A stretch of DNA of 25,389 bases, from positions 1-25,389 of IMG/VR virus record IMGVR_UViG_3300030117_004504; one strand, written 5' to 3'. Below are positions 4,301-24,395 of this stretch, piece by piece. The position numbers and the translations under genes were made by a program. The stretch's first letter is position 1. Every line of letters begins with the position of its first letter. The notes under the pieces are model-generated. The model saw only the letters and a list, made by a program, of their open reading frames with translations, was not told the DNA's origin and made no database searches. The stretch comes from a virus.

Positions 4301-7300
4301 AGTCTTATTAAAATCTTGCTTTTTATCTAACAAAGCATCCATTATAACGTCTCTTACGTTAGCGTTTTGTAACGCGTGTTCATATATTATTTTACCAGTA
4401 GCCGTAATATCTCCACCGACATACTCAGCGCCAGCTCTCATAGGATGCGAGGTATCGTTAACAGCACTTGATAAATATTCAAAAATAGCGCTGTGAAGAA
4501 CTTTATCTTTTGGATTATCTTTTATAGCTTTTTTAATCATATCTATCATATCATTAAAATTAGCTTTACTTACTTCGTTATATCTTTTAGCTTTAGCTTT
4601 TGTTATATTTTTTACGTTTTTACCTAAAGCGCCTTCGGCATCAGGTCTAAGATAAACCCTTTCAAGTTTTACTCCATTTAACTTGCCATCAACCGTAAAC
4701 AAACCTAACTCTTCATACAAAGTAGTTGATCTAGCGTAGTCTTTTACAGCACTATTAGTAATATTTCCACGTAAATCAACAGCTCTAATTAAACCAGGTT
4801 TACCATATGTAGCTAATAAAACCATTTTATCTGTAAACACGTCAAAGTTATTAAACCCATTTTTAGGGTCATTTATATTTAAGTCAGGCAAACCGTGTTT
4901 CTGAAAAACAGTATTAGATTTGCTAAACATAATACTAGACGTACCGTCTTTAATGTTTTGTATAGTTTGCTCATTATTGCCTAAAAGCTGTAAGTTTTCT
5001 CTTACCGCTTGGTTAGTCATTACTTTACCTGTTAAATTAGCTAATGCTAAAACTCTAGCCGATGTATTCCTATCATCACGAGTTGGCTTACCATCTATAA
5101 TACCAAATGTTTCTAAAAACTCTTTTTTGTTAATCTTATTTTTAATTTGTATTGGTAAACCTGATGTACTACCTGTTTTAGCCATTTTAGCTCTATCAGT
5201 TTTAGTATAAAAAGCTTTAAGCAAGCTGTTAGGTACTCCTGTAGCTGTACCACTTTGTGTAGATCCTTCAGGCAGCATACTAATTAATAAATCAGCATTT
5301 TTATTAATAAACATTTGAGCGGTTTGTAGCTCTTTTTTAGTTATATTAGCTAAAGTTTTTAATTTTCTAGGGTTTATACCAAACTTTTCACCTATTATTT
5401 CAGGTACTAAATTTTTTAACTTTTTAAACGTTAATTCACTAACGTTAAGTTTTGGTATTTGTTTTTTGATAGTTTCGTTAACTTTACTTTTAACATTTAG
5501 TCTATCAGCTAAAACTATTTTTTTAGGTTTTGGCTTTGTAGTAACCGTAGGCTCTGCTACTTCTTCCGCGGCTATATCTACTTTTTCTGTTATATCTTCC
5601 GTAAACTCTTCTCCTAGCACTCTTTTAGATGCTTCAATAGCTCTTTTAGGTAAGTTATCGTTAATATAAGCAGCTAATGGTACTCCTTTATTAGGATCAT
5701 ACGCTCTAATTAAATCAAATATACCACGTTTACCTATTTCAATTTCACTCATCAAAAGCTCTCTATCAAAATTAGGAGCTTCTCTACGTCTTTCTGCAAT
5801 TTTGCTTGTTATAGGCTTAAACTGCTCTATAATATCCATAGCCCCAGCAACGCCTTGTTCTTCGTAAATACGTTGAACATTGTCAGAAGCTGATTTAGAT
5901 AACTTAGGTGTTTCTACTTTACCTTCTCCTTTAGTTGCTTTAATAACACCAGAAGCTAAAGCGCCTTTGTGTATACTTTTATTATAATCCTTTAAAAAAT
6001 TATAAGCGCCTTGACCTGTTTTAAAATCCACTTTGGTATAACCTAAACTCGCAAAAGTTCTTCTAATACTGTCTTTTACTTTAGTAAAAATACTATCGTT
6101 AAACTTTATTTCGTTGTTAGCTATAGCGTCAGAAAATATAGTAAAATATTCATCTAAATTTTCAGCCATATACTCTGGCGTATAATTTTTATCTATTCTA
6201 TCTTGTATTTTGGCTTTGTTTTCTTCGCCTATAATATTTAAAAAATCATCTATAGTTTTTTGAGTTATATCTTTTTTTTGACCACTAGCTTTAATAATAC
6301 CATGCAATAACTCGTGATTAGCAACATTATCACCATACACCCTTGTTTTAGCTAACTTTTTATTAATAACAAGTTTATTATCTACAATACCACCTAGTGA
6401 ATTAGCTAAATCGTCACCATATTTTTCTTTTATTTGTTCTTGAGTTAAATTATCTTCAACTTCCAAACCATATAGTTTACTATGTTTTTTAGCAAAATCT
6501 AAGTTTGCTTCAAAATTTTTATCAGCAATATTTTCTCTAACTCGCTCCGCTGTTTTCTTTCTTGCCCTAACATCTGCCGTTCTACCATCAATAGCTGTAT
6601 ACTTACCAACTATTTCGTTTATCTGCTCCTCAATGTTTTCTAGCCTAGTATCAGCATTGATAACTTTAAATATACCAGACTTTTTGGTATCAACTTCTGC
6701 TTTTGCTCTTTGTTTTTCAAGGTCAACTAATTTCGCTCTATCAGCTGGATCTTCTACTTTAGCATCAATTTGAGTTTCTAAAGATATATCATATAATTTT
6801 CCATTAATAAGTTGGGCAAATTTTTCATCGTTTTTAATATTAAACTTTATTTTAGTTTTTTCTTCGTTAGTTAGTTTATCACTTTCTATTAAATCTAATA
6901 TTTCTTGTTTAGATCTTTTTTCACCATTTATATTATATTCACTTTTTTGAAGTGTTCCTTTAACTATTTCACCTACGTTTATAACTTGACCAGCGCCAGT
7001 TACTTCACCAATAGCCTCTAATGTTGCTTCACCTAAATCTATATCTTGCTCGGCACCTATTTGACCAGCGACCTCACCAGTAAAGCCACCTGTTGTTTCT
7101 ATAGCTGTTGTTGCTACACCAGCTCTACGAAACTTACCAGCTTTAACCAACTGACTACCAACGCCTCTTGATATACCAAGAGTCATAGCCTCAACAGCGC
7201 CTATATTTCTACCCCTAGCAGCTGCTCTTTGTTTTATTTTTTCAAACGTTTCAGTATCATCTATTACTGCTCTTATGTTTTCTTTTGTTAATTTTACACC

Positions 7301-8023
7301 TTCACCAACCTCTTCTTGAATCAAATCCATTAAAGTTAAACCAGTTTCCATAGAGCCTACTAAACCACCAATAGCGCCAGAAAAAGTACCTGTAACCGCT
7401 CCCGCGGCTGTAGTAGCAGCGCCAAGTGGACCTAAAGTAAAACCAGTTGAACCAGCGGCAGCTCCACCCGCAGCACCAACACCAGCTGAAAGAGCTGTAG
7501 CTCCACGAACTTCACCAGCTTGTAAAGAACCAGCCATAGTAACAGCGCTACCAACTAGAAATTGAGGTATAAAACCTGGATTATCTTTCAACGCTAGCAA
7601 AGTACCTACTACACCACCACCATTGGCTTTCTGATCTTTAGCAAAACTAACTTGCTCATTCGTTGGTCCATACTTGTCCATTTCAGCTTTAGCGTCTAAT
7701 ATAGACTGTATTTGTTCATCTGAAATATCTTTACCAAGTTTATAAACGTCAAAAGCATCGTCAATAGTTGCGGCTGTAGCTTTTGATTGTCTAAATACTT
7801 GAACTATGTCTTCTATAAAACCTTTATCTTCCGGTAATTCCGATGAACCATCTTCCAAGTTGGATCCCATAACGTTTGACTCCGCTATCGGATCCGCAAT
7901 TGCAGAGTCGTTTATCTTTCCCGGCTCATCTACTTTTGTAGCATTTGGGTATTTTAACTTAAAAGCTTCTAGATCTTGAGTTTCAACTTCAAAACCTTGT
8001 CCTTCAAAAATATATCTTTCCAT
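1355..8023 (-). CDS. giant multidomain internal virion / ejection protein (polyvalent-type) with HExxH peptidase and HAD phosphatase motifs
   Basis: 2222 residues, by position and size the equivalent of T7 gp16. Visible parts: an N-terminal segment (MERYIFEGQGFEV, about 1-35); a Gly/Ala-rich stretch at 135-233 suited to membrane insertion; an HELLH zinc-peptidase motif (H570, E571, H574) with E625 in LDEYF as possible third ligand; a segment at about 715-800 centred on YDPNKGVPLAAYI (Y775) resembling sigma-70 region 2; an unidentified domain at about 1035-1340; a HAD phosphatase-like domain at about 1355-1515 with DFDDT (D1363, D1365), T1442, K1479 and D1498/D1499; and a long C-terminal region with a hydrophobic helix near 2010-2026, perhaps the large-polyvalent-protein domain LPD38. 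FSKS-like tetrapeptides sit at the joints (708, 1033, 1343, 1527). The last 25 residues are very basic. Its ATG follows the TAA of the upstream gene directly. The domain series fits the polyvalent proteins described in phages and conjugative elements, which are delivered with the DNA; delivery here is inferred. Confidence 0.85.
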   Translation of the reverse strand: MERYIFEGQGFEVETQDLEAFKLKYPNATKVDEPGKINDSAIADPIAESNVMGSNLEDGSSELPEDKGFIEDIVQVFRQSKATAATIDDAFDVYKLGKDISDEQIQSILDAKAEMDKYGPTNEQVSFAKDQKANGGGVVGTLLALKDNPGFIPQFLVGSAVTMAGSLQAGEVRGATALSAGVGAAGGAAAGSTGFTLGPLGAATTAAGAVTGTFSGAIGGLVGSMETGLTLMDLIQEEVGEGVKLTKENIRAVIDDTETFEKIKQRAAARGRNIGAVEAMTLGISRGVGSQLVKAGKFRRAGVATTAIETTGGFTGEVAGQIGAEQDIDLGEATLEAIGEVTGAGQVINVGEIVKGTLQKSEYNINGEKRSKQEILDLIESDKLTNEEKTKIKFNIKNDEKFAQLINGKLYDISLETQIDAKVEDPADRAKLVDLEKQRAKAEVDTKKSGIFKVINADTRLENIEEQINEIVGKYTAIDGRTADVRARKKTAERVRENIADKNFEANLDFAKKHSKLYGLEVEDNLTQEQIKEKYGDDLANSLGGIVDNKLVINKKLAKTRVYGDNVANHELLHGIIKASGQKKDITQKTIDDFLNIIGEENKAKIQDRIDKNYTPEYMAENLDEYFTIFSDAIANNEIKFNDSIFTKVKDSIRRTFASLGYTKVDFKTGQGAYNFLKDYNKSIHKGALASGVIKATKGEGKVETPKLSKSASDNVQRIYEEQGVAGAMDIIEQFKPITSKIAERRREAPNFDRELLMSEIEIGKRGIFDLIRAYDPNKGVPLAAYINDNLPKRAIEASKRVLGEEFTEDITEKVDIAAEEVAEPTVTTKPKPKKIVLADRLNVKSKVNETIKKQIPKLNVSELTFKKLKNLVPEIIGEKFGINPRKLKTLANITKKELQTAQMFINKNADLLISMLPEGSTQSGTATGVPNSLLKAFYTKTDRAKMAKTGSTSGLPIQIKNKINKKEFLETFGIIDGKPTRDDRNTSARVLALANLTGKVMTNQAVRENLQLLGNNEQTIQNIKDGTSSIMFSKSNTVFQKHGLPDLNINDPKNGFNNFDVFTDKMVLLATYGKPGLIRAVDLRGNITNSAVKDYARSTTLYEELGLFTVDGKLNGVKLERVYLRPDAEGALGKNVKNITKAKAKRYNEVSKANFNDMIDMIKKAIKDNPKDKVLHSAIFEYLSSAVNDTSHPMRAGAEYVGGDITATGKIIYEHALQNANVRDVIMDALLDKKQDFNKTLKAIKKNYKLIALSEADAKAVDTATYIDENGNEIKYKNGMGVGWDIFVDNWFDRYFNTDVNAVNPNNIVIIENGKTFADEYGVTMSGKSPIIKSNLKPQQQFSKAVNKVRITSEPKGITVLDFDDTLATTESLVKYTAPDGATGTLNAEQFASTYQDLQDQGFTFDFSDFNKVVKGKLAPLFNKAIKLQGKFGPENMFVLTARPPQAQKAIFDFLKANGLNIPLKNITGLGNSTSEAKALWIADKVGEGYNDFYFADDALQNVQAVKNMLDQFDVKSKVQQAKVKFSKSIDKDFNDILEEVTGIEAKKRFSDVKARKRGASKGKFRFFIPPSHEDFVGLLYNFMGKGRKGDQHRNFFEQALVRPLNRAYREIDTAKQAIANDYKQLNKQFTGVKKKLKKKTPDGDFIFEDAVRIYLWNKHGYDIPGLSPSDQQNLVDLITNDSELQSYAETLNIISKQDMYVDPGKGWEGGNIKTDLIDATGRVGRAEYFAEFNENADILFSPENLNKIEAAYGKDFRSALEDMLHRIKTGVNRPKGQTGTINKFMNYLNGSVGTVMFFNVRSAILQQMSIVNYINFADNNVFAAAKAFSNQPQYWKDFAFIFNSDMLKQRRGGIGTDINGADLAQAVKGSKDPTKVVIGRLLKLGFLPTQIGDNIAIATGGATFYRNRVNKYIKDGLSKKEAEAKAFTDFQDLTQSTQQSSRPDMTSKQQASWIGKLVLNFQNITSQYNRIIKKAALDIGKGRISPPYTTKAQSNLGNLSKILYYGGIQNVIFYSLQTALFAVMFGDDEDEDQILKKSERVIQGTIDSILRGAGIYGAVASTLKNAVRKWKEQRDKGYNKDESAVLMELLNFSPVVGIKARQIVNAEKTINYNENIISEMETFDADNPQWSAVTNYTQALTNFPANRLYQKSINMRNALDKDYTNFQRVMFFSGYTTWSLGLGDNEAIIEAKEKAGINKKNTKSKGVKQRKVKERKVRSR

Positions 8024-10412: not shown

Positions 10413-12650
10413 TTAAGCTGAATTAGAAAGTAGTTTTTCAACGTCAAATCTTAGTGTTCTATCACTTGTACCCGCTTTTATAACTTCAATGTTACCACTT
10501 ATAGTAGCCACTGTACCAGTATTTTCTATAGTTAAAGTAGCACCATTTTCTAAAGTTTGTGCTGAATCAACTGTAAAATTACCGGCACCATCAGCCCCAC
10601 CACCAGCTGTAATTAATGGATTACCAAGTTTTGCGTTAATACCTATACCACTAAGCCTTGATACATTGTTAATAACACCTTCTCTGTCCGCAACACCTAT
10701 CGTGGTGCTATTGCTTACAACACCAGAAGTAGTTGTAGTACGTGGTGTTAAAGCTACTTTTAAATCAGTAAACTTAACATCCCAACCAAAAACTCTAAGT
10801 ATTTCACTTTCTCCATAACCACCAAGTTTTATCGTGTCTCCAGCTAAAGCTAAAACTTGTTGTTTACTAAAAACTATCATTCCTTCTTGAACTGTAACCA
10901 AACCATTAACTATAGTTGGTTTTTTACCTAATGTATCTACAGCTTTTTGTGTATATTTAACTATTTTCTTTTCTTCTGTAGTTCCAGCAGATAACACAAT
11001 TGAATCTTCGTAGTTTGCGATAACTGATCCAGATGTTACATTACTTACTGTAGAGATCATACCAGCACCTATTCCTAACAAATTATCTACAGGCCAAGCA
11101 TAATTCATTCTAGCGCTAAAAGTTAAGGGTTGATTGTCTCGAAAAGCAATATTTTGTGACATCGTGAAATCAGTTGCAGCACCACTAGTTTCCACAACAG
11201 TAACCGTTGTTACCTCTCTATTAACCTTAGAACTAAATGTTAACGATGCATTATCAACCCACACGGTAGAATGACCAGCTGTAGTACCCATTGTAAATGT
11301 GTTAACATCACTACCAGTATTAATTTCTGAAACTACACAGGCTACGTTCTCTGGATTACTATTGCAAAAAGGACAACCCGGACCAGTTATGCTATCGCCA
11401 ACAGCCATTATATTTGCTACAACTTCATCAATTACAACAACTCTTCCATCAGCTATAGCGCCATTAACAGTACCTGTTGTAGTTGGTGAAGTTATTCTAT
11501 CTCCAACTGCGATAACAGCTGATAAATCAGTGTTATCCATTCTAACTACATCACTATCACGTGCTCCGTTAACATCATCTCCAGTAAAAGCATCTCTAGC
11601 CGTAGGATATATATCTTCTCCTGGTAAATCAATTGGATCTGATCCAATTGTAGGTTCTACAAAAGCTATAACATCATCTGGTGTAGGTTGTCTTAAAATT
11701 CTATAAGCAGTAGTTGCTGAGCTTGTCCATGAAAAAGAAAAAGGAATTTTACCCTTACTTTTTCCTCTATCTATATTTGATGTAAACGTACCAAACCCTA
11801 ATCCTGCTACAGTTGAGTTTGGTGAGTAACCTGATATAGTAAGCAATACTGAAGCGTATTGATATAAAACTTTTCTTAGCATTAACGAATTAGATCCAGT
11901 AGAGTTGTTTATATCTAAAGAACCATCATCAAACCTAACTTCTACGTAATCAGCATGACGCGTTGATTCTTCTGGATTAGAGTAAGGCACCGCGTATAAA
12001 GATACATCGTATTGATCATCACCAGAAAAAGATAATGTTACTCCATCAGCAATACTTGTCGATGAAGATAATGAAAATACGTTTGTGGAATCTATTGACG
12101 CAACAGTTATATTAGCTGAATTAAGAGCAGCGTTTCCAGTAACCCTGTCTCCAACCGCCATTTTAGTTGCTACGGCAGAATCCATTGTTACGCTAGTAGC
12201 ACTACTAACAGCTCCATTTACAGTATCTGTAGTAATAGTACTCGGAAACAAAATACTTCCTTTATAAACTCCACTACTAACAATTTCTTGTAAATAAGCA
12301 CGTGTAGTTTGAAACTCTTCTGTTACAAAATTATAATAATCACCAGTTGCGTTATTTTTAATTTCTAATATAAATTCAGGATTATTTTCACCGCTTATAC
12401 TAAAGGCTCTACGCTCGCCGTCAGCAGAAATATCAGAAAAATCTAAATCAAAACTTGTTATTACTTTTTTTGATAAATTACCATATAGTCTAGCGTACTC
12501 AACATCAGACATCAATGAACCATCTGGCATATAACGAAAACCAGGAGGTGCTGTTTGACCTTGATCGTTTACAGTACGACGTGAATATGTCGCGCTGCTT
12601 GCTCCAACTGAGCTTGATGAACCTGATGAACCGCCGTATCCGTTTGCCAT
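10413..12650 (-). CDS. VrlC-like modular virion protein (tail or fibre accessory)
   Basis: 745 residues. It starts with a low-complexity Gly/Ser linker (MANGYGGSSGSSSS), then PPGFRYMPDGSLMSD (about 35-49), then FDLDFSDISADGERRAFSIS and EFILEIKN (about 67-99), and later HADYVEVRFDDGSLDINNST (about 232-251). I recall this series of motifs from the T4-like cyanophage structural proteins annotated as VrlC; that is memory, not a search result. Several copies of an approximately 70-residue beta module (pattern VNGA..., MAVGDxVTG, ..., LTFS) interrupt or extend this core: at 143-209, a split copy at 359-393 plus 474-513, one at 394-473 lying inside the split copy, and a worn copy at 642-710. A CPFC motif with another Cys 11 residues on lies in the inner copy. 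There is no signal peptide. Its position between the nozzle and ejection genes suggests a tail-associated or fibre role. Confidence 0.8.
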   Translation of the reverse strand: MANGYGGSSGSSSSVGASSATYSRRTVNDQGQTAPPGFRYMPDGSLMSDVEYARLYGNLSKKVITSFDLDFSDISADGERRAFSISGENNPEFILEIKNNATGDYYNFVTEEFQTTRAYLQEIVSSGVYKGSILFPSTITTDTVNGAVSSATSVTMDSAVATKMAVGDRVTGNAALNSANITVASIDSTNVFSLSSSTSIADGVTLSFSGDDQYDVSLYAVPYSNPEESTRHADYVEVRFDDGSLDINNSTGSNSLMLRKVLYQYASVLLTISGYSPNSTVAGLGFGTFTSNIDRGKSKGKIPFSFSWTSSATTAYRILRQPTPDDVIAFVEPTIGSDPIDLPGEDIYPTARDAFTGDDVNGARDSDVVRMDNTDLSAVIAVGDRITSPTTTGTVNGAIADGRVVVIDEVVANIMAVGDSITGPGCPFCNSNPENVACVVSEINTGSDVNTFTMGTTAGHSTVWVDNASLTFSSKVNREVTTVTVVETSGAATDFTMSQNIAFRDNQPLTFSARMNYAWPVDNLLGIGAGMISTVSNVTSGSVIANYEDSIVLSAGTTEEKKIVKYTQKAVDTLGKKPTIVNGLVTVQEGMIVFSKQQVLALAGDTIKLGGYGESEILRVFGWDVKFTDLKVALTPRTTTTSGVVSNSTTIGVADREGVINNVSRLSGIGINAKLGNPLITAGGGADGAGNFTVDSAQTLENGATLTIENTGTVATISGNIEVIKAGTSDRTLRFDVEKLLSNSA
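10521..12224 (-). repeat. beta-module repeats within the VrlC-like protein (four copies, one split)
   Basis: The module runs roughly VNGA / V.MDS / MAVGDRVTG / T.ASI / F.LS / G.TLSFS over 65-80 residues. Copies lie at 12024-12224 (complete, placed in a loop of the core domain), 11232-11471 (complete, with a Cys-containing insertion), 11472-11576 plus 11112-11231 (the two halves of a copy flanking the previous one), and 10521-10727 (diverged). Similar modules occur in two neighbouring genes, at 22727-23233 and 17312-17542. I recall this module from marine phage fibre and tail proteins; its exact fold is not assigned here. Confidence 0.6.
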
Positions 12651-12662
12651 AATTTATTTTAT

Positions 12663-13028
12663 TTATTTACTACTTTGTGAAACTTCTGATCCTACAGAAA
12701 ATAATTCAACTTTATCTGTTCTTGTGTTTTTAAATTTAACACTAGCATAATAACCTTTTACATCTGACGAGTTAACTGCTTTGTTTTTACCAAACATTAT
12801 GTAATCGTTTTCACTAGGTAGTAATATACCGCTTTCATTATCATACATTACTTGTATTAAAAAAGCATCGTGATTTATGTTTGTTACTGTACCTAAAAAA
12901 ACAACACTATTATTAGAAGTAGAAAAACCACTATTTCCTACAGTGTTAACAGGAGAATAGTAAGCAGCATCTCCAACTTGAAGACTAACATTAATAGGTG
13001 AACCAATTGATAAAACTAATGTTTGCAT
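12663..13028 (-). CDS. small beta-rich virion-associated protein, cyanophage-like
   Basis: 121 residues, predicted almost entirely beta. The stretches NVSLQVGDAAYYSPVNT, VVFLGTVTNINHDAFLIQVM and DYIMFGKNKAVNSSDVKGYY, then ASVKFKNTRTDKVELFSVGS, ending SSK, closely match a small structural protein that I recall from T4-like cyanophages, where the C-terminal half (GYYASVKF...AELF) is most conserved. That likeness is from memory. There is no signal peptide, transmembrane segment or catalytic motif. It lies 12 bases upstream of the VrlC-like gene and 23 bases downstream of the giant nozzle gene, so the two cyanophage-like genes form a pair. A role in the tail or baseplate periphery is likely but unproven. 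The start is ATG with an A-rich leader (ATAAAAAACAATT). Confidence 0.8.
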   Translation of the reverse strand: MQTLVLSIGSPINVSLQVGDAAYYSPVNTVGNSGFSTSNNSVVFLGTVTNINHDAFLIQVMYDNESGILLPSENDYIMFGKNKAVNSSDVKGYYASVKFKNTRTDKVELFSVGSEVSQSSK

Positions 13029-13051
13029 AATTGTTTTTTATAATTTATTTA

Positions 13052-16000
13052 TTATATACTATCTGTACTGCATTTACGTTGATCACTTAATTGCAAGGTA
13101 GTATCTACATTTTGCCAAGTTTGCCATGTACCATTTACTGTTTCACCGCCACTAGTTTTACACCCAGCAGTATAAGTGTTTTCAATTTGTACTGGATCAC
13201 AAAGACCATCGCTTGTGGTTATAATATATCTAACTGTAACTTGACTAACGTAGTCATTAGCATCTACTAGCCCAACGTTACCAGGAAAATTGTAAAAAAT
13301 ATCTGTATTTTGCAGGCTATTTGAACCAGTTGACTGAAAATCACCAAGGGGATTATCTTCTGCTATTAAAACCATATTATCGTTAAAAATCTTTCTAGTT
13401 ACATTAAAGTCATCTGGAACACCACTTGCATCCGTGTCATTATCATAAGTTGAACCTGAAGTTGGTGTAATTGATAGAACTAATCGCGTTGCCTGGTTTA
13501 TAGCGCTTCCTCCTATATAAGTTGTTACTAGTGATCTAGAAGAGTTAAAACACTGAACTTCATCATAAGTACAAACAGAATTATCAGTAACGGTGTAAAA
13601 ATCTCCATAATTATTTGCCGCGGAATCTGTACACCCTTCATATTCACAACCTACGTTTGCAGTTGCATTTGGATTGTAGTTATTTGGTTGTACAAAGTTG
13701 CCATTAGAATCTTGGTATATAGTTCCGTTATCCATACATCCAGGAATAGGATTAATACAAGATCCATTATTATAAATAACTCCTGTTAGATAACTACCAA
13801 AATCTGAAGAGCAACTACTTGGTTCATATTGGTATTCCCAGCCATCAAACAAAGTAACTGTTGAATCGGTACAACTACCAGCAAAGTCATAGTTAGTAGC
13901 ATAAGGATCTGTACAGCCATACCAAAAACAAGACCCATCATCAGTTGTTGCTAAAGGATTGTTATTAAAAGCTGTAGACTCTGTACAACCATATCCATAC
14001 AAACAACTACCATCATCACAAGTTGCACTTGAATTATGATTAGAAGCACTTGGATCTGTACAGCCATCGTTACATTGAACACAATTTCCATTACCATCAT
14101 CTACAAAACCAGCTAAACAATTACCATCACAATCAGCGTTTGTAGAAGGACCACTATCACATGAGCCATCGTTAATTACAGCTAAAGGATCATAATTACA
14201 CGCCAAATCACTTGTACATCCAGATATTGGGGCAGCGCTTGTAGTTATTGTTCCATATATCTGTAAAGCAGAAGGATTAGAGGTTGACACCGTAGGCGTT
14301 ACTGAACCACAAGCTGTTGTAACAAGTATTGTGTAGTTTACACCAGCCGAGATATCGGTATTAAACGTATGGGTTAAAGTAGAACCTGGCCCAATAGAGT
14401 TAATAATAGCAATTGAATAGTTATCATCATCATTACTATCTACTAGTATCGAGTAACCAGATAAAGGTGCTAACGAAACACCTGTAGGTTCGTCAAACTC
14501 AACAGTAATAGTATCGTGAGTTGCTGAAAGAACTAGATTGTTAGCAGCATCACAATACGTACAATAGTTGTTACAAGTTCCACCATCATAATTAAATACA
14601 GTAGAGCTTTCAAAATGATTACAGTAAGTACAACTTCCATCGTCTGTAGTAGCTAATGAATTATAATCACAAGACATTGGATCTGTACAACCACTTACTG
14701 GATACGTACAAGAAAAATCATCAGTGTTTGCTAAAGCACTATAATTAATTGCTGTAGAGTCTGTACAACCGCTAACCACAGCAATACATGAACCATCATC
14801 AGTATTTGCTAAAGAATCATGATTAAACGCTGTTGAATCTGTACAACCCATAATATAAGGTATACAACTATTATCATCGTTAGTAGCGTTTATATTATAA
14901 TTAAAAGCAGTAGCGTCTGTACATCCATTTATAACACATGAACCATCATCAATAGTAGCCTCTGGATTATAGCCTGAATCTGCATCTGGATCAGTACAAC
15001 CATAAATTATAGTTGCACAAGTTCCGTTGTCTATACCTGCTTGTGGATTATAGTTATCAGCATTAGGATCTGTGCATCCAGCTAATTCTAGTATTGTTGG
15101 TGTAGAAGACAATCTACCTAAACCTTGAAAAGAACTATCAGCACTATCAAAATCACTAAGAAAAATTCCATTAGTAGTAACGCTGTCAGTTACACCTTTT
15201 ATATGATTAAACCATTTACCTTCTTTTTCTATAAATTCTTTTACACTACCTTTTTCTAGATCAGTATTAATTGTTTCTACATACCAACCAGCTTTATCTA
15301 TTAGATTATAATACTCATTATCACTTATTGGAGCTGTAGCATTTGGATTTATAACACCTACACCTGTAACTGGATCTATAGTCCCAGGTAAATAAACTTG
15401 ATACGCATCAATCGCGTTTACATTAGACTGTGATCCTTCGTAATTTAAAGTTTTAAAAGATTTAACAATACCAGGATTTTCGTTAAATATTATAGTTATT
15501 TCAGAAGGTTTAGGTATATTATAAAAAGTATTTCTATTTATTTCTTCACCCGAAAGAGCATCGAACTTTTCAACATGATGTTTCCATAATTCACCTTGTT
15601 TAAACGTGTAATATTCATTAGCACAACTAATAGCGTTTTCTGGAGTAAAAGACTTAAAACTAACCCAACCTTTTACATTTTCTTTAAAAGTAACTGTTTT
15701 TGGATTACCATCTTCACTATTGTCAAGAGTTATATTATACTCACTTTTCTTATCATCATAGCTACCAACAAGTTTATTACTTAACTTTAAATTATCTCTA
15801 AACCAATCTTTCATACCAAAGTTTGATATTGGTGTTAAACCATCTTTAGATAATCTAACAACCGCGCTTCTAACTTTGTCTGTAAAGTAACATCTATAAG
15901 ATTCTGAAGCAAATGATTCTGGATTTTTAGATATACCGTAATCACCAGCATAAGGAATAGTTTGACCTAACACATTATTTGTAGCTGTTAATTGTGTGTT

Positions 16001-19000
16001 ACCATCTGCATTAAATACAGCATCTTTATTTGCTAGTATTTTTAAAACTCTATCTTCACACAACGCTATTAAGTCTCCATCAGCTGTAGATCTAGAGTGT
16101 AGCTTTTGAATACTACCATATATAGGATTTACATCTTTGGTGATTTTTTCAGCTGCTATAAATTGGTTTAAACTATTTACGCCAGACATTGAGTTGTATA
16201 AACCAGAATATATTAAACCATTTTTTCTATGTTCTTTTTTATAATTTTCACCTAAAGTTGTCGATGCTTTAACTCCATTTGCTATAAATGGTAAATTAAA
16301 AGTATCTTTAATTCTATTAGATTCAACACCATTTCCAAAAGAATAACAATTATACCAATCTAAAAAATAATTACTATTATATATATCTTCTTTAAGCTTT
16401 AAAATAGGTGGATCTGTAGGATCATCTCCATCTGGTGTTATATTTTCAACCTCAACTTCAAACGCTATACCGTTAGGTCTAGTTATTGTTAAAATACTAC
16501 CAATTACTAAAGGTGGTACTGTAAAAGTACCAGCACCTCCAAGACTAAAATCAATACCAACATCAATTTTTATTTCTCTTCCAGAGCTATATGAGTTTGA
16601 AGATACTTGTCCTAAATCTCCATTAGCACGACCTTCACCAGCCATACTTGTTACAGTAGATCCTATAGGTATTGCTGTGTTAATAGTGCTTGCGTTTAGT
16701 TTTGTTGGGTTGTTTTCACTTATTTCATAATAAACATCTAAACCTGTGTTTTCTTTAGGTTCTGTTTCCCAAACAAAAGGGTTTTCAGGTAAATTTCCAC
16801 CATCAGCGTATTCTTCAACTGGCTCCACAAACTGCATGGTATAACCAACAGCACCTATTTGTCCTAATTCATTAAAACCACCTATTCCACCTATTGGGTT
16901 GTTAATTTGACAAATATCCGTATTATCTTCTGTAAAGTTACTAATACCATTCATACACACTTGTACAAACTTTAGTCTTTCACCCACTGTAGGTGCACCT
17001 GCATTAAAAGGATGTGAGCTTGAACCACCATAGTTTAATGGTTTTTCATAACCAGCTAATTCTATTTCCCAACCTTTAGGATGTTCTTTAATATTTTTTA
17101 TAACAATATCATTTGCTTTAGGAGCATTAGTAGCGCTAGTATCAATATTATATTCTAAAAGTTTCATACCTTTATGAAGACTATATATAGTTTTTAAATC
17201 GTTACCATTACTACATTCAGTTTTTATATTATCAACTACAATGTGGTTGTATTCATTTGTTGGACTAGCCGTAGTACCATACATGTTATTTTCTAATAAC
17301 CTTATTGTAAATCCAAATTCAATATCTGTATCATCGCTAATAGTACCTGTTATAGGTTGTGCATTAAGAGGATCACTTAGAGTTATAACAAGTGTGTTAC
17401 CGCTTGTGGTTACACCACTTACTACCGCTGTGTTTGTTATATTAGTATTTGTTCCAGCTGACATTCCAACTTTTATAGAGCTAGCAAGATCATTGCCGTC
17501 TTTAACTGTTATAGTTAAACCAGCACTCGTAGATCCTACACTTTTTACTGTGTAAAATTGACCATCACCTAAATGTAAACCACCGGTAATACTTACCCCA
17601 GGTGCTTCAGCTGGATTCCAACTACTAATAGGTGGAGTAACTTCAAAATTAAAAGTTTTAGTATAAGATGAAGCCGCACTCATTAACATTAGTTGAGGTT
17701 CAACACTGCTACTATTACCATCTTCAGGCCAACCATGATCATATCTTGCAAATCTTGCATTTCTTCTATATCCAGTTTGACTTGTTATTGTATATATCGT
17801 CTCTGTTGGATCTTCTTTCCATTTAAATCTAAAACCAGCAGCTAAAGAGTTTGCGAATGTAGCTGAATTACTTACTCTAGTACCATTACCGAAACTAAAA
17901 TAATCAGAAAAAGTTCCATAATAATCACTGAATGTAGTATCTGGATTATAAGCCGTATTGTCTGCAAGAAATTGTTGCACTGCAGTACCATCATCAGCAA
18001 CACCTCCACTCCAATTATCTCTTGGTAAAAAATCAAAACCACCAAAACCTAAATTTATAATTGAACTAGTCGGTGTATTTTGAATACCATCACCAACGTT
18101 ACTACTAGCACCAGTATAACCACAATCCGCAGCATTATTACATTCTGGTGAAAACTCATCGTTCATATTGCTTGAGTTAGGCCAAACTAAATCATTGTCA
18201 TCATTATCAGTGGTAGGAATGGTGTATTTTATAGTTCCTTGATCTATAAACCAAACACCCATTTGTCCTGTAGAAGGAGTATTTTCATTATCATCTCCAT
18301 AATTATTTATATAACGAGAATTTAATACACTCGCAACTTGACTAGCTGGTTTATTTTGTAGTATACTTATATTTCCTGTTTTATGAAAATAAGATTCTCT
18401 TGCTACACAGTGATTAAAATTACGATCTAGTGCATCATAATTTCCAACCGTAGAATCTGCACCATAGTCAAAATCAACCCAATTTTTATTATCACTAACT
18501 ACGGCAGCCGCACTTTTCTTTTTTAAATTAACATCATTATCTAAAAGATAAATTTGTTTACTAGTTGTTTCCACGTAATTGGTACCAACAGAATCATCAG
18601 TTATTTGAGTTTGTATTTTACCATCGTTTTCAATTTTAACAAAAAATCTACCGTCAAATTGAGGTTTATTCTCAATAACAGCTTTTGTAAAAACTATTTT
18701 AGTTTCATCAAGTATTTCGTTTATCGAACTACTATTATCAAATATAAAATCTATATCATTAGTAATATTTGTAGCAAGCGTTACGTAATATTCAGTTGGA
18801 TCAGTGTTTGGGCTTGTGGAGTCATCTCTATTAGATGTAATTTCTGATACCTTGTATTGTTGAGAAACATCACCAGCGCTAACAAACTGTACGTATATAT
18901 CTTCTGTAATATCTTCCATTCTAGACAAACTAGTAGATGCAAATCCAGCACCATAAGACATTGTAAATGATATACCATTTACCTTTGGAGGTTGGTTGTT

Positions 19001-22000
19001 CATGTAAAAAAGCTGATCATTACTACCAGTGTTAAAGTGCGAAATAGTTCCTATACGTATTCTTCTAGTTTTAATAAATTCTGGAGCTTCGTTTTCTATA
19101 GCTAAAACCTTGTATTTTGTAGAGTTTTCTATAACATTTTTATCGCCTTCAGCCCCTCTTTTAAAATATAAAAATGTATCTAAATCTATTTTGTTTCTAT
19201 CAGAAGAAGGGAAAGCTAGCCATATATTACCATCCTCGGCTTTATACCAACGATCCATAGGTACATTATAGTACTCGCTAGAAGTTTCTTTTATATAAAA
19301 CTTATAATAAAGCATTTCTGGAGGTATAGCGCCTTGCAATCCAACTTTTAGTTTATTTGCGTTTATAGACTCTGTTTTTTTAACTCTAAAACCACCGGTT
19401 TCACTGATTAAAACTGGAGTTTCTCTACCGTATTCGTCGGTAAAAACAACACCAAGTTTATAATCTCTTAAAGATTTAATTGATTTTTTTGGTGTACCAC
19501 TGTTTGATGGTGTCCAAGAATATATAGAGTTTTTAAAATCTGGTTGGTAGTTTAAATTACCAACTTTTAAATCATAATTTTGCTCGTAGTTACCATATAT
19601 AATTCTACTACCACTAACTGCTTGTGCTAAAGCGGTTTTTGGTACGTTATCCCAAGTTCTTAAAAGTTGATTAGCATCAATCGTGCTTTTTATTGTTTCA
19701 GATTTTATTAAATACTCACCAGTATCCCAAGGTCTAGAATCTCCAGCTACAGCTATATCTATAGGACTAATTGTTTGAACAAGATAAACGTTTGGAAAAG
19801 CATCTTCTTTATATAATATATCTACTTCAACTATATCTCTACCCAACAAAGAATTAGCAGTTGTTGGTTTAAAACCTTTAATTTTTATAGACTTAAGGTT
19901 ATTAATCATACCTTTATTCCAACCTTTTTTAGGATCATAATTAAATGAAGTTGGTAAAAAAGCTACTTCAGACCAAGGTGCAAAAGTAGAATACTCACCA
20001 TCTTCATATTTATATCTATAAGAAAATCTTGGAAATTTATCTTCGAATATAACAGGTTCTGTGTCTTCGTAATCAACAACGTAATTTAATTTACCAATAT
20101 ACTGAAGATTAGATGGAACACTAGATGGAACTCCATTTAATCCAACAACTTGTATTTGAACTTGAACAGTACCGTTGTTGCTATCAAAATTGTTATCTTG
20201 ATGATCTGTTATTAAGCCTCTTATCGTCCAATCAGCAAGAGGTGTAGCTGGAGCCGTAAAACTAGTAGCACTAGTTAAATTAAATTCTTTTAACAATAAA
20301 TAACCACCAACTTCCCACGCAAAGTTAACGTCAGAAACTAAATTAATATCAGTTTCTACAGAAAAACGAACTGTATCTCCAACTTGTAGTGCTGAAAAAT
20401 CAAATTGAACATTAGTATTTGAAGAACTAAGTATAGAAGTTGTACCGGAATCTATACCTATGGTTGTTATTCCAGTATAATCTAATAACTTATCTCTTCC
20501 ATCGTTAAGCTCTAAAGTTAAAGCGTTTTTAGGTGATTTACGAATTACTGTAATATGTTCTTCTCTTGCTATTATATTGCTACTATAATTTACGCCTTGT
20601 GCTTTATTTATTAAACGAGTAGAAAAAATCCCAGTATCATCCGTACCTTCTATACTTCTAGATATATTTATTTTTTTAGGCTCTGTCTTTCCATCAGTAA
20701 AGAAAAGCATATCATCTATAATATCTATTCCTGTAATATTTTGATTATGATTAAAGTTTAGTGTTCTAGGACCATAGAACATAAATCCTTGATATCCACC
20801 CGTGAGATTTAGATTATCATTTAATATAATAGTAGGAGAAGTTAAAATTTGCAACTGCCCACCAATTGGTGTGGGTATTCCGTTAAATATAACTCCAACT
20901 GGAAAACCTGATAATTCGTTTTGGTTAGCATCTTGAATTTTTATAGCATTGCAAAGACCACTAGGACCAGGGTTTCCACCACAAACTGTATCATCTATGT
21001 CACTTATAAAAAATAAATTACCATCGTATTGGACTTGATCACCAATGTTAAGATCACCTGCGTTGTATTGATTTTCGTTTAAATACAACCATCCAGTAGC
21101 TACATCTGTTGTTGTAGTGTAAGTTCTTGTAATTCGTAAAGTTAAAGGTGTTTGGTTAGGCGCAAAAGAAGTTGAGTATGCAGATAAAGAACCAGTAGCT
21201 GCAGCTGGAGTTGGCTGTGATAAAGTAAAATTTCCTATAAAAGATATAGAACCTGATACTGTAGAAGCGTCGTAATTATAAGGAGTTTCTAACTGCAACT
21301 CAACAACTTGTTCACTAAATTCATAAATAGGATCTCCTTGAAAATAAACCATTTGTTTAAAAGAAGCAGCAATAATTTTGTTTCCTGGTGGTGTTGTTGG
21401 AAAACCATCAAGAAATACTTCAGCGTCTATTAAGCCACTTAAACTACCACCTGTCCATTCACTTATATATATTATATTTGAATTAGCTGGATTATAACCT
21501 GTTGTAGGTGTTACACCAAACGAAGAAATAGGTGATAACATAGGTATAAAAACATCATTACCAACTTTATCCACCGTATAATCAGGACCAACTACAGTAG
21601 TGCTTATTGATGAAGCGGTAGATTGTTCTGATGCAAATTCAAAATCAACGATTACTTCATTAGTTATATCAGATACTTCAACAGCATTAGAGGTTGATGT
21701 TGTATTACCAATATTTACACCAACAACATTCCAACCAATTTCAATTTCACTTAACAAATTGTTTGTAAAGTTAATTAGAGACAACTCGTTAGAATTAGTT
21801 ACTAATTGTTCTTCGTTTGGAACATAAAAAGCATATTTATCTACAAATACAAGCTCGCATCCATTGTCAGAACTATATTTGCAAATAAAGTCTTTCATTG
21901 AAAAACTATTAGCAAGATCAATAGATTCTTGTTCACTAATAGTTGTTGTGCCAAAGCCACTTATAAAAGAATTAATACTTGAAAAAGAATTACCTGAAAC

Positions 22001-22255
22001 AAACCAATATAAAGAATCGTTTTTTTCGTCAGATATTGATCCTACTGTATATGCGTCTTTACCTAAAATATTATTAAACTCAGTGCTACATCCCGCGGTA
22101 TTACCCAATATATTTTGTACAGCACCAACGTCAGATCCTTCTGAAGTTGAAACCTGCACGTTCATTGCATCTCTATATTCTCCATTTGGAACAAGTCTTT
22201 CGTCAAGATCCTTGTTCATCTTACCACCGGTAAAATTATGCTTTATTTCTGGCAT
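13052..22255 (-). CDS. giant tail nozzle / fibre-like protein with C-terminal Cys/Asp repeat array
   Basis: 3067 residues, the largest gene. Residues 7-51 hold the motifs NFTGGKMNKDLDERLVPNGE, YRDAMNVQVS and GAVQNILGN. This N-terminus is typical of podovirus and crAss-like tail nozzle (tail tubular B or stabilisation) proteins, of which T7 gp12 is a distant analogue. The next 2300 residues are long and beta-rich, with many aromatic and Asp/Asn residues. A VGM-type beta module lies at about 1572-1648, shared with neighbouring genes. From 2393 to 2898 there are twelve Cys/Asp repeats (GCTD...NY...DDGSC), split by a fibronectin-III-like domain at about 2574-2675. A tail of about 170 residues with another beta domain ends the protein. 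T7 gp12 is only about 800 residues, so the extra length probably forms an external, adhesin-like part reaching the host surface; this is inferred. It starts three bases after the upstream TAG. No frame breaks were seen. Confidence 0.85.
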   Translation of the reverse strand: MPEIKHNFTGGKMNKDLDERLVPNGEYRDAMNVQVSTSEGSDVGAVQNILGNTAGCSTEFNNILGKDAYTVGSISDEKNDSLYWFVSGNSFSSINSFISGFGTTTISEQESIDLANSFSMKDFICKYSSDNGCELVFVDKYAFYVPNEEQLVTNSNELSLINFTNNLLSEIEIGWNVVGVNIGNTTSTSNAVEVSDITNEVIVDFEFASEQSTASSISTTVVGPDYTVDKVGNDVFIPMLSPISSFGVTPTTGYNPANSNIIYISEWTGGSLSGLIDAEVFLDGFPTTPPGNKIIAASFKQMVYFQGDPIYEFSEQVVELQLETPYNYDASTVSGSISFIGNFTLSQPTPAAATGSLSAYSTSFAPNQTPLTLRITRTYTTTTDVATGWLYLNENQYNAGDLNIGDQVQYDGNLFFISDIDDTVCGGNPGPSGLCNAIKIQDANQNELSGFPVGVIFNGIPTPIGGQLQILTSPTIILNDNLNLTGGYQGFMFYGPRTLNFNHNQNITGIDIIDDMLFFTDGKTEPKKINISRSIEGTDDTGIFSTRLINKAQGVNYSSNIIAREEHITVIRKSPKNALTLELNDGRDKLLDYTGITTIGIDSGTTSILSSSNTNVQFDFSALQVGDTVRFSVETDINLVSDVNFAWEVGGYLLLKEFNLTSATSFTAPATPLADWTIRGLITDHQDNNFDSNNGTVQVQIQVVGLNGVPSSVPSNLQYIGKLNYVVDYEDTEPVIFEDKFPRFSYRYKYEDGEYSTFAPWSEVAFLPTSFNYDPKKGWNKGMINNLKSIKIKGFKPTTANSLLGRDIVEVDILYKEDAFPNVYLVQTISPIDIAVAGDSRPWDTGEYLIKSETIKSTIDANQLLRTWDNVPKTALAQAVSGSRIIYGNYEQNYDLKVGNLNYQPDFKNSIYSWTPSNSGTPKKSIKSLRDYKLGVVFTDEYGRETPVLISETGGFRVKKTESINANKLKVGLQGAIPPEMLYYKFYIKETSSEYYNVPMDRWYKAEDGNIWLAFPSSDRNKIDLDTFLYFKRGAEGDKNVIENSTKYKVLAIENEAPEFIKTRRIRIGTISHFNTGSNDQLFYMNNQPPKVNGISFTMSYGAGFASTSLSRMEDITEDIYVQFVSAGDVSQQYKVSEITSNRDDSTSPNTDPTEYYVTLATNITNDIDFIFDNSSSINEILDETKIVFTKAVIENKPQFDGRFFVKIENDGKIQTQITDDSVGTNYVETTSKQIYLLDNDVNLKKKSAAAVVSDNKNWVDFDYGADSTVGNYDALDRNFNHCVARESYFHKTGNISILQNKPASQVASVLNSRYINNYGDDNENTPSTGQMGVWFIDQGTIKYTIPTTDNDDNDLVWPNSSNMNDEFSPECNNAADCGYTGASSNVGDGIQNTPTSSIINLGFGGFDFLPRDNWSGGVADDGTAVQQFLADNTAYNPDTTFSDYYGTFSDYFSFGNGTRVSNSATFANSLAAGFRFKWKEDPTETIYTITSQTGYRRNARFARYDHGWPEDGNSSSVEPQLMLMSAASSYTKTFNFEVTPPISSWNPAEAPGVSITGGLHLGDGQFYTVKSVGSTSAGLTITVKDGNDLASSIKVGMSAGTNTNITNTAVVSGVTTSGNTLVITLSDPLNAQPITGTISDDTDIEFGFTIRLLENNMYGTTASPTNEYNHIVVDNIKTECSNGNDLKTIYSLHKGMKLLEYNIDTSATNAPKANDIVIKNIKEHPKGWEIELAGYEKPLNYGGSSSHPFNAGAPTVGERLKFVQVCMNGISNFTEDNTDICQINNPIGGIGGFNELGQIGAVGYTMQFVEPVEEYADGGNLPENPFVWETEPKENTGLDVYYEISENNPTKLNASTINTAIPIGSTVTSMAGEGRANGDLGQVSSNSYSSGREIKIDVGIDFSLGGAGTFTVPPLVIGSILTITRPNGIAFEVEVENITPDGDDPTDPPILKLKEDIYNSNYFLDWYNCYSFGNGVESNRIKDTFNLPFIANGVKASTTLGENYKKEHRKNGLIYSGLYNSMSGVNSLNQFIAAEKITKDVNPIYGSIQKLHSRSTADGDLIALCEDRVLKILANKDAVFNADGNTQLTATNNVLGQTIPYAGDYGISKNPESFASESYRCYFTDKVRSAVVRLSKDGLTPISNFGMKDWFRDNLKLSNKLVGSYDDKKSEYNITLDNSEDGNPKTVTFKENVKGWVSFKSFTPENAISCANEYYTFKQGELWKHHVEKFDALSGEEINRNTFYNIPKPSEITIIFNENPGIVKSFKTLNYEGSQSNVNAIDAYQVYLPGTIDPVTGVGVINPNATAPISDNEYYNLIDKAGWYVETINTDLEKGSVKEFIEKEGKWFNHIKGVTDSVTTNGIFLSDFDSADSSFQGLGRLSSTPTILELAGCTDPNADNYNPQAGIDNGTCATIIYGCTDPDADSGYNPEATIDDGSCVINGCTDATAFNYNINATNDDNSCIPYIMGCTDSTAFNHDSLANTDDGSCIAVVSGCTDSTAINYSALANTDDFSCTYPVSGCTDPMSCDYNSLATTDDGSCTYCNHFESSTVFNYDGGTCNNYCTYCDAANNLVLSATHDTITVEFDEPTGVSLAPLSGYSILVDSNDDDNYSIAIINSIGPGSTLTHTFNTDISAGVNYTILVTTACGSVTPTVSTSNPSALQIYGTITTSAAPISGCTSDLACNYDPLAVINDGSCDSGPSTNADCDGNCLAGFVDDGNGNCVQCNDGCTDPSASNHNSSATCDDGSCLYGYGCTESTAFNNNPLATTDDGSCFWYGCTDPYATNYDFAGSCTDSTVTLFDGWEYQYEPSSCSSDFGSYLTGVIYNNGSCINPIPGCMDNGTIYQDSNGNFVQPNNYNPNATANVGCEYEGCTDSAANNYGDFYTVTDNSVCTYDEVQCFNSSRSLVTTYIGGSAINQATRLVLSITPTSGSTYDNDTDASGVPDDFNVTRKIFNDNMVLIAEDNPLGDFQSTGSNSLQNTDIFYNFPGNVGLVDANDYVSQVTVRYIITTSDGLCDPVQIENTYTAGCKTSGGETVNGTWQTWQNVDTTLQLSDQRKCSTDSI
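13562..15079 (-). repeat. twelve Cys/Asp (GCTDxxAxNY...DDGSC) protein repeats interrupted by an FN3-like domain
   Basis: Within the giant nozzle gene the translation shows twelve units starting GCTD (or GCTS, GCTE, GCMD), most with xxAxNY and ending in D-D-G-S-C or a variant. Six are upstream (residues 2393 to about 2565) and six downstream (2679 to 2898) of an FN3-like segment, which starts LVLSATHDTITVEFDEP. Unit length is about 24-26 residues in the regular copies and longer in copies 6, 7, 10 and 11. Copies differ at the DNA level, so they are old or selected to vary. Such repeats are common in secreted proteins of marine Bacteroidetes and occur in some marine phages. The Asp pattern suggests calcium binding. 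Confidence 0.85.
17312..17542 (-). repeat. single beta module in the giant nozzle gene, like those in the adjoining tail genes
   Basis: Residues about 1572-1648 read LTITVKDGN, then IKVGMSAGTNTNITNTAVVS, then LVITLSDPL, and end DDTDIEFGF. This is the same succession of elements as the modules at 10521-12224 and 22727-23233. Sequence identity is low, so the match rests on pattern. Confidence 0.45.
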
Positions 22256-22258
22256 GTA

Positions 22259-23644
22259 CTAGTGTTTTATTTGCTTAGATTTTCCTCTAAGTACTTGAGT
22301 TAATTCTTCTAATTTTAAATTAGATAATCTTAGTTTTGCAGTTCTAATAGCTGCAAATTTTTCTTTTTTAAATCTATTTACTTGGTATTCAGGTATATTA
22401 GATTTTCCTGATAAAACAGCATGAGCAATATACTTGTACATTGCTTCTTCTGCAAACTTATGAACTTGCATTTCACTATCTGTTCCTAGACTATCACTTA
22501 TATAATCTAATATCACAGTTTTTCCATTAATATTAGAGCTAAAATGTATTTTTCCTGATACTTGATCTATATAAAAAGATCCGTTTACTTGAGCATGTTG
22601 AGGGTCTAACCCATATCTTTCACCTTGCATTTTCCAATAAATATCATCTTCGTAATCATCGTTGTTATTTTCAGAAGGTGTTTGTGATTTATAATTTGAC
22701 CACGTATCACTTTCAACATCTGGAGATATAAACGTAATTTCTTCAGTATTAGCAGCTGCAGCATTTAGTGATTTTTCTGATACTAAAACCTTAAGATCAG
22801 TAGTAGAAATATTTTTTACAAACGTTCCTAATGGAAAATCTTCGTGATATATTAACATACCAATTTCTATACTAGATATATCAGAAGTTGAATTAAAATT
22901 TATTATATTATCATCAACTACCCAATCTAAGTTTTCAATTATAAATGATGATTTTTGAGGCAATATTAAATTATTGCTTTTTGTAATAGTTCCTGTAACA
23001 TCTAGATTTGTAAAAGTTAATGTCGCTCCATTAAACGTATCATCTGGAACAACTGGAACATAAGGAAAAGGTGGAGCAGCACCTATAGTACCAACAGTTA
23101 TCGTTGTAGCTCCACCTGAATTTGAAACTTTTATAACGCGTAAACCATCTACATAAGGACCACTAACATACATTCCAACTAAAATATCTTTATATTCTTT
23201 ATCTAATAATATTTGTCCAGGTGTAGACGCGTCACTACTAACGTTACCTATAGCTTGCAACTTAAATTCACCATCGCTGTTTTGAAGTGGATTAAAAGGA
23301 TTTGAAGTTCTATTTGTAGGATACAAAGGATGTTTTATACCGGCAGAATCCACCGAACTAATTTTAGTATAGTTTACATAATCTTGCGGTAACGTCATTT
23401 GAAGAGTTGCAGGCACGGTAATTTCTTGTGATTTAAAAGACTTAAACGTATCAAAAGATAATTCAGCTAAAGCTCTTTGCGCGTGAAAAGCAACATCTAT
23501 TCTACTAGCTTTAGATATTATTTTATCTTCACCAACATATACGAACATAAACTGACTTATTATATCATCTAAAGATACAAATTGATAACTACCGTGTTCA
23601 CCGCTATTGTAATAAAAGTTTTGCGTTTGATTTAATAACCCCAT
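22259..23644 (-). CDS. head-tail connector / ring-like structural protein with two inserted beta modules
   Basis: 461 residues. The N-terminal 110 residues (SLDDIISQFMFVYVGEDKII, then RIDVAFHAQRALAELSFDTF, then LPQDYVNYTKIS) match a conserved structural protein that I recall from crAss-like and uncultured marine phages, with the helical start and LPQDYV segment seen in connector or adaptor proteins. The C-terminal 120 residues (GLDPQHAQVNGSFYID, then MQVHKFAEEAMYKYIAHAVL, then a basic helical tail) also look conserved. Between them, residues 138-213 and 240-306 are two beta modules of the kind found in the VrlC-like gene, so the connector core seems interrupted by accessory domains. The gene lies directly before the nozzle gene and four bases after the 248-residue gene, matching the adaptor-to-nozzle order of podoviruses. 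The exact ring identity cannot be given. The start ATG follows AATAAATAA, with no Shine-Dalgarno sequence. Confidence 0.8.
   Translation of the reverse strand: MGLLNQTQNFYYNSGEHGSYQFVSLDDIISQFMFVYVGEDKIISKASRIDVAFHAQRALAELSFDTFKSFKSQEITVPATLQMTLPQDYVNYTKISSVDSAGIKHPLYPTNRTSNPFNPLQNSDGEFKLQAIGNVSSDASTPGQILLDKEYKDILVGMYVSGPYVDGLRVIKVSNSGGATTITVGTIGAAPPFPYVPVVPDDTFNGATLTFTNLDVTGTITKSNNLILPQKSSFIIENLDWVVDDNIINFNSTSDISSIEIGMLIYHEDFPLGTFVKNISTTDLKVLVSEKSLNAAAANTEEITFISPDVESDTWSNYKSQTPSENNNDDYEDDIYWKMQGERYGLDPQHAQVNGSFYIDQVSGKIHFSSNINGKTVILDYISDSLGTDSEMQVHKFAEEAMYKYIAHAVLSGKSNIPEYQVNRFKKEKFAAIRTAKLRLSNLKLEELTQVLRGKSKQIKH
22727..23233 (-). repeat. two beta modules inserted in the connector-like protein
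   Basis: Copy 1 (about 23006-23233) reads ILLDKEYKDILVGMYVSGP, then TTITVGTIG, then NGATLTFTN. Copy 2 (about 22727-22927) reads INFNSTSDISSIEIGMLIY, then GTFVKNISTTDLKVLVSEKS, then EEITFIS. Both share the VGM/IGM turn, the middle valine-rich strand and the final TFx strand with the modules of the VrlC-like protein. Confidence 0.5.
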
Positions 23645-23648
23645 TTAT

Positions 23649-24395
23649 TTATTGTATTTTTGATTGTTGTTGTTTCATCATTGTTTCCATGCTTTGTCCG
23701 GCTTGAGCAGCATCTTGTCTCTGCATAGAAATTCCAGCGTATTTTAATATTTTATAAACTAACTCTGTTTCTTCAGATGGATGTAATTCAAAGTCAACAG
23801 CGTTAGTAGCATCATACATTGCTTTTTCGTTAATAACAACGTAAGCCCAATTAGCTTTTAGTGGAAGTCTAAAATAATGTATACGAATAGGTGTAGTATT
23901 AATTGTAGCATCGCTTGTTGTTACTCTTATTCCGTTATTTTTAATTACTGCTACTGGTCGTTGTTTTGTTGGTTTTATTAAAGAGCCAATATTACCTGTT
24001 AAATTACCATAAGTACAGGCATTAAAATCTTTTACATTTAATATTTCAGCTTTTATAAAATCTTGCATAAATATTTCGTGAACTCTATACATATATTTAG
24101 GTATATTAGGATAGTAACTATTAATCGACGAACCTCCTTCCCATTCAGAAAAATTAGTCGTATCTGCAGTGTCAAATATCTGTATTTTTTGCTCTAACAT
24201 ATCGTCTATATCAGCATAAACAGTATCGTTACCTTGAACTCTTCTAGCAGCATTAGTATCGTAAAAATATTGTTCAAATATTTCCATTTGTGCTTGATTA
24301 GCAAATAAATTAAACTCTTGAGGAGTTATATAACCTCTTTGCTCTTTGTTAGCAAATGCTAAAACTCTTTGATATACCGTATCTATACTTATCAT
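23649..24395 (-). CDS. putative head-tail adaptor / ring structural protein
   Basis: 248 residues. The N-terminus MISIDTVYQRVLAFANKEQR, then GYITPQEFNLFANQAQMEIF, is a helical segment that I recall as highly conserved in crAss-like and uncultured marine phages, where the gene sits among the connector genes. The middle holds mixed beta segments (RPVAVIKNNGIRVTTSDATI; TTPIRIHYFRLPLKANWAYV). The C-terminus is helical: EETELVYKILKYAGISMQRQ, then a Gln-rich end. No transmembrane or catalytic motifs are seen. It is followed after three bases by the larger connector-like gene and precedes the nozzle, supporting a place in the neck. A specific name such as ring protein 2 would be a guess. The start ATG has the A-rich leader AAAAAGAAATT. 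Confidence 0.8.
   Translation of the reverse strand: MISIDTVYQRVLAFANKEQRGYITPQEFNLFANQAQMEIFEQYFYDTNAARRVQGNDTVYADIDDMLEQKIQIFDTADTTNFSEWEGGSSINSYYPNIPKYMYRVHEIFMQDFIKAEILNVKDFNACTYGNLTGNIGSLIKPTKQRPVAVIKNNGIRVTTSDATINTTPIRIHYFRLPLKANWAYVVINEKAMYDATNAVDFELHPSEETELVYKILKYAGISMQRQDAAQAGQSMETMMKQQQSKIQ

Follow-up and report, generated by a model that had tools for sequence, protein, structure and literature searches.

The window analysed here, the whole stretch of 25,389 nucleotides that forms bases 1-25389 of the 33,638-base viral record IMGVR_UViG_3300030117_004504, carries a family of β-rich modules of 65-80 amino acids in three tail genes, with two copies in a probable ring/adaptor protein (C), one in the giant muzzle protein (G) and four in a further protein (V). 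Members of this one family are precisely present in some relatives and absent from others, are replaced by other domains, lie in mosaic DNA and are restricted to tail genes. We consider it likely that the module is a small β-barrel that serves, in a marine relative of the Crassvirales, as an exchangeable plug-in of the tail, swapped by recombination and displayed for attachment to surfaces or for alteration of the phage's own surface. An initial annotation of the window had described a β-module scattered over the connector, the nozzle and a third tail gene in two, one and about four copies, and this distribution was confirmed by profile matches.

All three genes are located on the minus strand. 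In protein C (461 amino acids, 22259-23644), a conserved core made of residues 1-130 and 306-461 encloses a cassette at residues 131-305, which holds modules C1 (residues 131-213, 23006-23254) and C2 (residues 231-306, 22727-22954). Module G1 occupies residues 1565-1650 (17306-17563) of the 3067-residue muzzle protein, encoded at 13052-22255. Protein V (745 amino acids, 10413-12650) carries V1 (residues 138-210, 12021-12239), then an outer module V2, whose N-terminal half (residues 356-390, 11481-11585, profile positions 1-35) and C-terminal half (residues 477-512, 11115-11222, profile positions ~38-72) are separated by an inner, nested module (residues 391-473, 11232-11480), and finally V4 (residues 648-709, 10524-10709). 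The inner module was delimited by its profile match and by relatives that have a single intact module. Turns of the VGM, VGD or IGM type are found at C156, C261, G1596, V166, V382 and V417, and the last copy of V has no VGD.

The results of our profile searches showed that the copies recognise each other across genes. The C1 profile, built from the connectors of relatives, matched V399-473 (E 1.9e-5) and G1592-1648 (E 1.8e-4), with a best E of 0.13 among 90 shuffled or reversed decoy sequences, and the G1 profile matched C2 at 1.4e-7 and C1 at 8.6e-5, with a best decoy at 0.55. The hhalign probabilities were 89% for C1-G1, 68% for C1-V1, 56% for C2-V1 and 93% for V1-V4, while the direct comparison was weaker for C2-G1 (13%) and G1-V1 (24%). 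These two weak comparisons were settled by bridging relatives (designated below by L numbers): one segment of the L122 muzzle was matched by the V1, C1, C2 and G1 profiles, and the modules found in the second ring protein of relatives matched V1 at 95% and C1/C2 at 97%. Nearly all of 47 control profiles taken from the same proteins stayed below 10%, the exceptions being V1 against an insertion of the capsid protein (40%), V1 against a 121-residue protein (18%) and V4 against a neighbouring tile of V (52%). Chance resemblance of β-rich sequence was ruled out by the decoys and these control profiles, and sequence comparison places the module copies of C, G, V and the second ring protein in the same family. 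G and V escaped an iterative search in which connector copies prevailed, and both came up when each gene supplied its own seeds. Among the 2208 open reading frames (ORFs) of the relatives' loci, the module was carried by 76 ring, 27 V, 22 muzzle and 6 second ring ORFs and by none outside these four families. The module sequences gave no useful match in Pfam, PHROGs, isolate phages or the PDB, where the matches were antibodies and designed repeats and were taken as chance.

Models of C1, C2 and V1 showed the same strand order in all three, and not the unrelated folds that would be seen if the resemblance were superficial. In the AlphaFold (AF2) model of protein C, the predicted local distance difference test (pLDDT) of both modules was ~64-94 in ten-residue blocks (~64-90 for C1 and ~80-94 for C2), and each has six strands. 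The best structural match of the whole C model was chain 7qog_B of crAss001 (Z 10.7), followed by KHP30 (Z 10.6) and N4 (Z 9.1), with a high overall root mean square deviation (rmsd) from the ring/adaptor chains that comes from the inserts and from the arrangement of the domains; by sequence, the ring core had no match in the PDB. Module C2 matched 8eci_1 (Z 9.8), the insertion domain of LKA1 (residues 281-379, Z 8.0) and the phage tail-tube chain 9n71_A (Z 7.8), and V1 matched that stretch of 9n71_A as well (Z 8.2, rmsd 1.9, 27% identity over 67 residues), while C1 was closest to translation-factor barrels (Z 6-7). On these models the module is likely a six-stranded β-barrel of the insertion-barrel class, a class assignment that is likely rather than proven because chance often yields Z values of 7-8. 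V1 is inserted between residues 60-137 and 211-267 of V, which together resemble an Ig/macroglobulin-like β-sandwich (VIA, ~90 residues aligned over V 61-267) at Z values that are also common by chance; with Foldseek, the model of V as a whole had no good match. The insertion of the capsid protein (L082 5500-7011, minus strand, residues ~76-150), to which V1 has a weak match (40%), might be distantly related to the modules within this barrel class.

We then compared the cassette site of protein C in relatives. Within the clade, the flanks are mostly 70-90% identical to those of the window, and identity drops to 10-60% per block in region 131-305. The ring proteins of Cellulophaga phage phi38:1 and Maribacter phage Panino are without the insert, and a link of 4-5 residues replaces it in clade members L088, L094, L096, L097, L092, L099 and L147; the C-terminal cores of L088, L094, L096 and L147 are 73-84% identical to that of the window. 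About half of 250 unique ring proteins had only a short loop at the site, a share that depends on the sampling of relatives. Filled sites contained the module pair, a jelly-roll resembling a carbohydrate-binding module (CBM), a Laminin_G_3 domain or an unclassified domain of 200-262 amino acids (23 members in the first set). The CBM-like candidates comprise three profile groups and L102, whose CBM_4_9 match is sub-threshold (0.0018), while the Laminin_G_3 match of L133 (1.6e-20) is above the cut-off. Comparison of the module pair, the type B insert, the L102 domain and the LamG domain with hhalign gave no match (all below 1%), and some of the CBM-like groups at this site matched each other at 79-96%. 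The core tree requires at least 15 changes of insert type, and in ring proteins with the module pair the mean identity is 70% in the core versus 38% in the insert. Ring (adaptor) proteins are normally regarded as part of the conserved core of the virion, and one ring site here can take any of at least four unrelated domain types or stay empty.

Similar presence and absence was observed in the other genes. Module G1 is exactly missing from the muzzle of L073, L076 and L058 and is present in L069, L060, L094, L087, L068 and L121; CBM-like profiles also matched the muzzle near residues 95-240 in L081, L123, L126 and L127. At the V1 site, between residues 137 and 211 of V, the window, L081, L037 and L063 have a module, and most other relatives, including L048, L006 and L091, have none. 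The nearest neighbours of the V1 module of the window are in L081 (76%), at the same site, and in L075 and L048 (74% and 70%), at a different site. At the V2 site, a single intact module is located between the same cores in L091, L006 and L126, whereas in the window, L048, L018, L085 and L062 this module is interrupted by a second one at profile position 35-38. The V4 module of L003 is in turn split at position 29 by a nested module of the V1 type. The second ring protein, which is without an insert in the window (248 amino acids, 23649-24395, minus strand), carries the module in L254, L269, L154, L266, L256 and L164 by profile and in L181 and L196 by eye, and at another site it has CBM-like domains in L262 (CBM_4_9, 2.7e-5, just under the cut-off), L207 (0.0004) and others. 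The proposal that modules interrupt conserved cores therefore holds in these alignments for C1+C2, G1, V1 and V2, which are insertions that relatives lack at exact sites in each of the three proteins. The possibility that the modules are integral parts in all relatives was rejected by the empty sites in C, G and V, and it applies to V4 alone, which was found in every V relative reaching that far and is integral.

The DNA of the ring locus is mosaic. The cores of L037 and L142 are 86% identical; their DNA identity is 73-95% in the flanks and 40-57% across the inserts, which belong to different types. For L037 and L051, DNA identity reaches 90-96% over most of the insert and lies at 66-85% beyond it. 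At the informative sites, L037 groups with L142 in the flanks (134:73) and with L051 in the insert (225:13), the latter ratio being partly expected because the insert of L142 is non-homologous. Read from the sequences, such mosaics are what the exchange of cassettes through recombination in conserved flanks would produce. The empty sites, the alternative domains, the cassette swaps and the occurrence of the same family in four tail genes bear out the earlier proposal that the modules are interchangeable and have moved between genes.

These results suggest a mechanism in which tolerant loops, or sockets, lie between conserved core segments in the ring proteins of the tail barrel, in the muzzle and in V. 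When phages co-infect a cell, homologous recombination in their conserved flanks would exchange the content of a socket. A socket may be empty or hold one β-barrel, two of them, a jelly-roll resembling a CBM, a lectin-like domain of the LamG type or some other domain of 200-260 amino acids, and occasional illegitimate insertion would put modules at new sites, even inside other modules. By analogy with crAss001, the plug-ins may be exposed in high copy number, as many as 12 to a ring, on the exterior of the tail, where they might promote adhesion to glycans of the host cell surface or alter the surface that the phage presents. The earlier description of the module as a surface domain thus appears likely, and an exposed position on the tail exterior and a part in attachment to surfaces, together with the ligand and the selective reason, are what we infer from the lectin-like alternatives accepted at the same sites and from the inserts being the fastest-changing part; the nearest structures also include phage insertion domains.

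Several points weigh against this interpretation. The β-barrel modules match no carbohydrate-binding family, and the matches to CBM_4_9 (sub-threshold) or Laminin_G_3 are confined to the alternative inserts. Similar barrels elsewhere can be purely structural, as is the I-domain of the P22 coat protein, and the core tree is possibly blurred by recombination. Direct copying between genes, in the form of near-identical DNA in two genes, was not seen among the compared metagenomic contigs, which are mostly fairly diverged, and no near-identical module copies, which would point to a recent copy between genes, were seen within this genome. The chief rival explanation gives the modules a stabilising role: as cementing or spacer barrels, comparable to the I-domain of P22 and crassvirus capsid proteins, they would reinforce the contacts of adjacent tail subunits, and the other folds at the same sites would reflect mere tolerance. 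It draws on the LKA1 insertion barrel, reported to be P22 I-domain-like (PMC5701251), among the nearest structures and on the 40% hhalign match of V1 to the capsid-protein insertion of the window itself, but an insert is absent from about half of the ring proteins sampled, and unrelated lectin-like folds can replace it. A stabilising contact should be conserved, yet the inserts change fastest, which weakens this explanation, and we consider it unlikely.

It is less probable still that the modules have no selected function, being neutral passengers spread by recombination wherever tail loops tolerate short β-domains whose ends lie close together. Their nesting in one another and the many empty sites would fit such passengers; their restriction to four tail gene families, and the recognisable CBM or LamG type of the alternatives at the same sites, would not. 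Finally, the resemblance could come from low-complexity β-rich Ser/Thr/Val sequence in segments that are unrelated and integral. Profile identities between genes are indeed low (7-31%) and no Pfam family covers the modules, but β-rich controls mostly failed, bridging sequences were matched by all profiles, the models have the same strand order and the empty sites are exact, so that this explanation is already contradicted and very improbable. An exchangeable plug-in displayed on the tail remains the interpretation that we favour.

Exchange of domains is known in the phage neck passage structure and in receptor-binding proteins (Smug et al. 2023, PMC10684548), where, as here, a conserved part is kept and a non-homologous, often carbohydrate-binding domain is swapped between related phages. 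The example in that study is a C-terminal swap, whereas the present case involves an internal socket of a ring protein, one module family over four tail genes and nested modules. The six-stranded insertion barrel of the LKA1 tailspike was likened by its authors to the I-domain of the P22 coat protein (PMC5701251), and both resemble our module in size, in the number of strands modelled and in being inserted into another domain; they differ in that sequence similarity is not detectable and in that the insertion here is optional and exchangeable between relatives. The ring proteins of ΦcrAss001 form stacked dodecameric rings and have a helical and a β-sandwich domain, and variation in the length of the crassvirus muzzle by insertions has already been noted (Bayfield et al. 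2023, PMC10172136). The window shares with the ring proteins R1-R5 and the muzzle of that system the gene order, the muzzle family and the best match of the C core, to 7qog_B, but the matched ring chains of crAss001, of ~226-238 residues, have no room for inserts such as those of C. The BACON-domain tandem repeats of crAssphage (PMC6949934) are another case of repeated, evolutionarily labile β-domains; there they are in tandem in one protein, whereas here single optional insertions are distributed over several tail genes. Neither an exchangeable ring-protein cassette nor a multi-gene socket system was found in the literature searched, so that sockets spread over several genes, ring proteins among them, appear to be new within a known kind, the exchange of domains.

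It is also possible, with a chance that we put slightly short of even, that the crassvirus-type tail barrel of this marine clade is a general display scaffold, in which the stacked rings, the muzzle and an extra tail protein share one pool of domains (β-barrels, CBM-like and LamG-like). If so, host attachment would be diversified through the core head-tail machine and beyond the fibres alone. The sites described here provide a readable record of the remodelling of crassvirus tails, and matched empty and filled proteins allow direct tests of the function of plug-in domains.

The gene order of the window, terminase-portal-capsid-ring-ring-muzzle, is colinear with gp90-gp101 of phi38:1, a stretch that encodes the terminase, the portal, the capsid, two ring-type proteins, the muzzle and further structural genes. 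The phage is, on these sequences, a marine relative of the Crassvirales with a virion module that is Pervagoviridae-like by gene order. Protein C belongs to PHROG 13977 (1.8e-45) and is syntenic with gp96 of phi38:1, directly before the muzzle. Protein V had no counterpart between gp98 and gp99 of phi38:1 and no obvious one in Panino, no match in Pfam or PHROGs up to E 1, and none in isolate phages or in the viral scan; its gene appears to be a clade-specific extra tail gene. The "VrlC-like" label given to V in the initial annotation found no library match, and its assignment of modules to fibres is unproven, V having no match to a known family.

The muzzle protein belongs to PHROG 14478 (1.2e-119), and its C-terminal domain crAss_MUZ_C (PF25729) scored 26.5 bits in the window, below the cut-off of 27; the score in relative L126 was 44.5 bits. 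Near its C-terminus, about 11 repeats of the type GCTDP..NY.P.A..DDGSC (13052-15079, residues ~2393-2900) seem to vary in number among relatives; we take their style to be that of secreted proteins of Bacteroidota. PHROG 18548 matches both residues 2185-2280, in the C-terminal part of the muzzle, and a separate protein of 121 amino acids (12663-13028), like a gene split or fusion, and in L080, L045, L029, L056, L061 and L039 the muzzle is encoded by two or more consecutive ORFs, from a true split or a sequencing frameshift. Elsewhere in the window, a protein of 2222 amino acids (1355-8023) with an HExxH motif (HELLH) is probably a large cargo-type protein, and the guanine-cytosine content is 41% at 7001-8000 versus ~31% in the surroundings.

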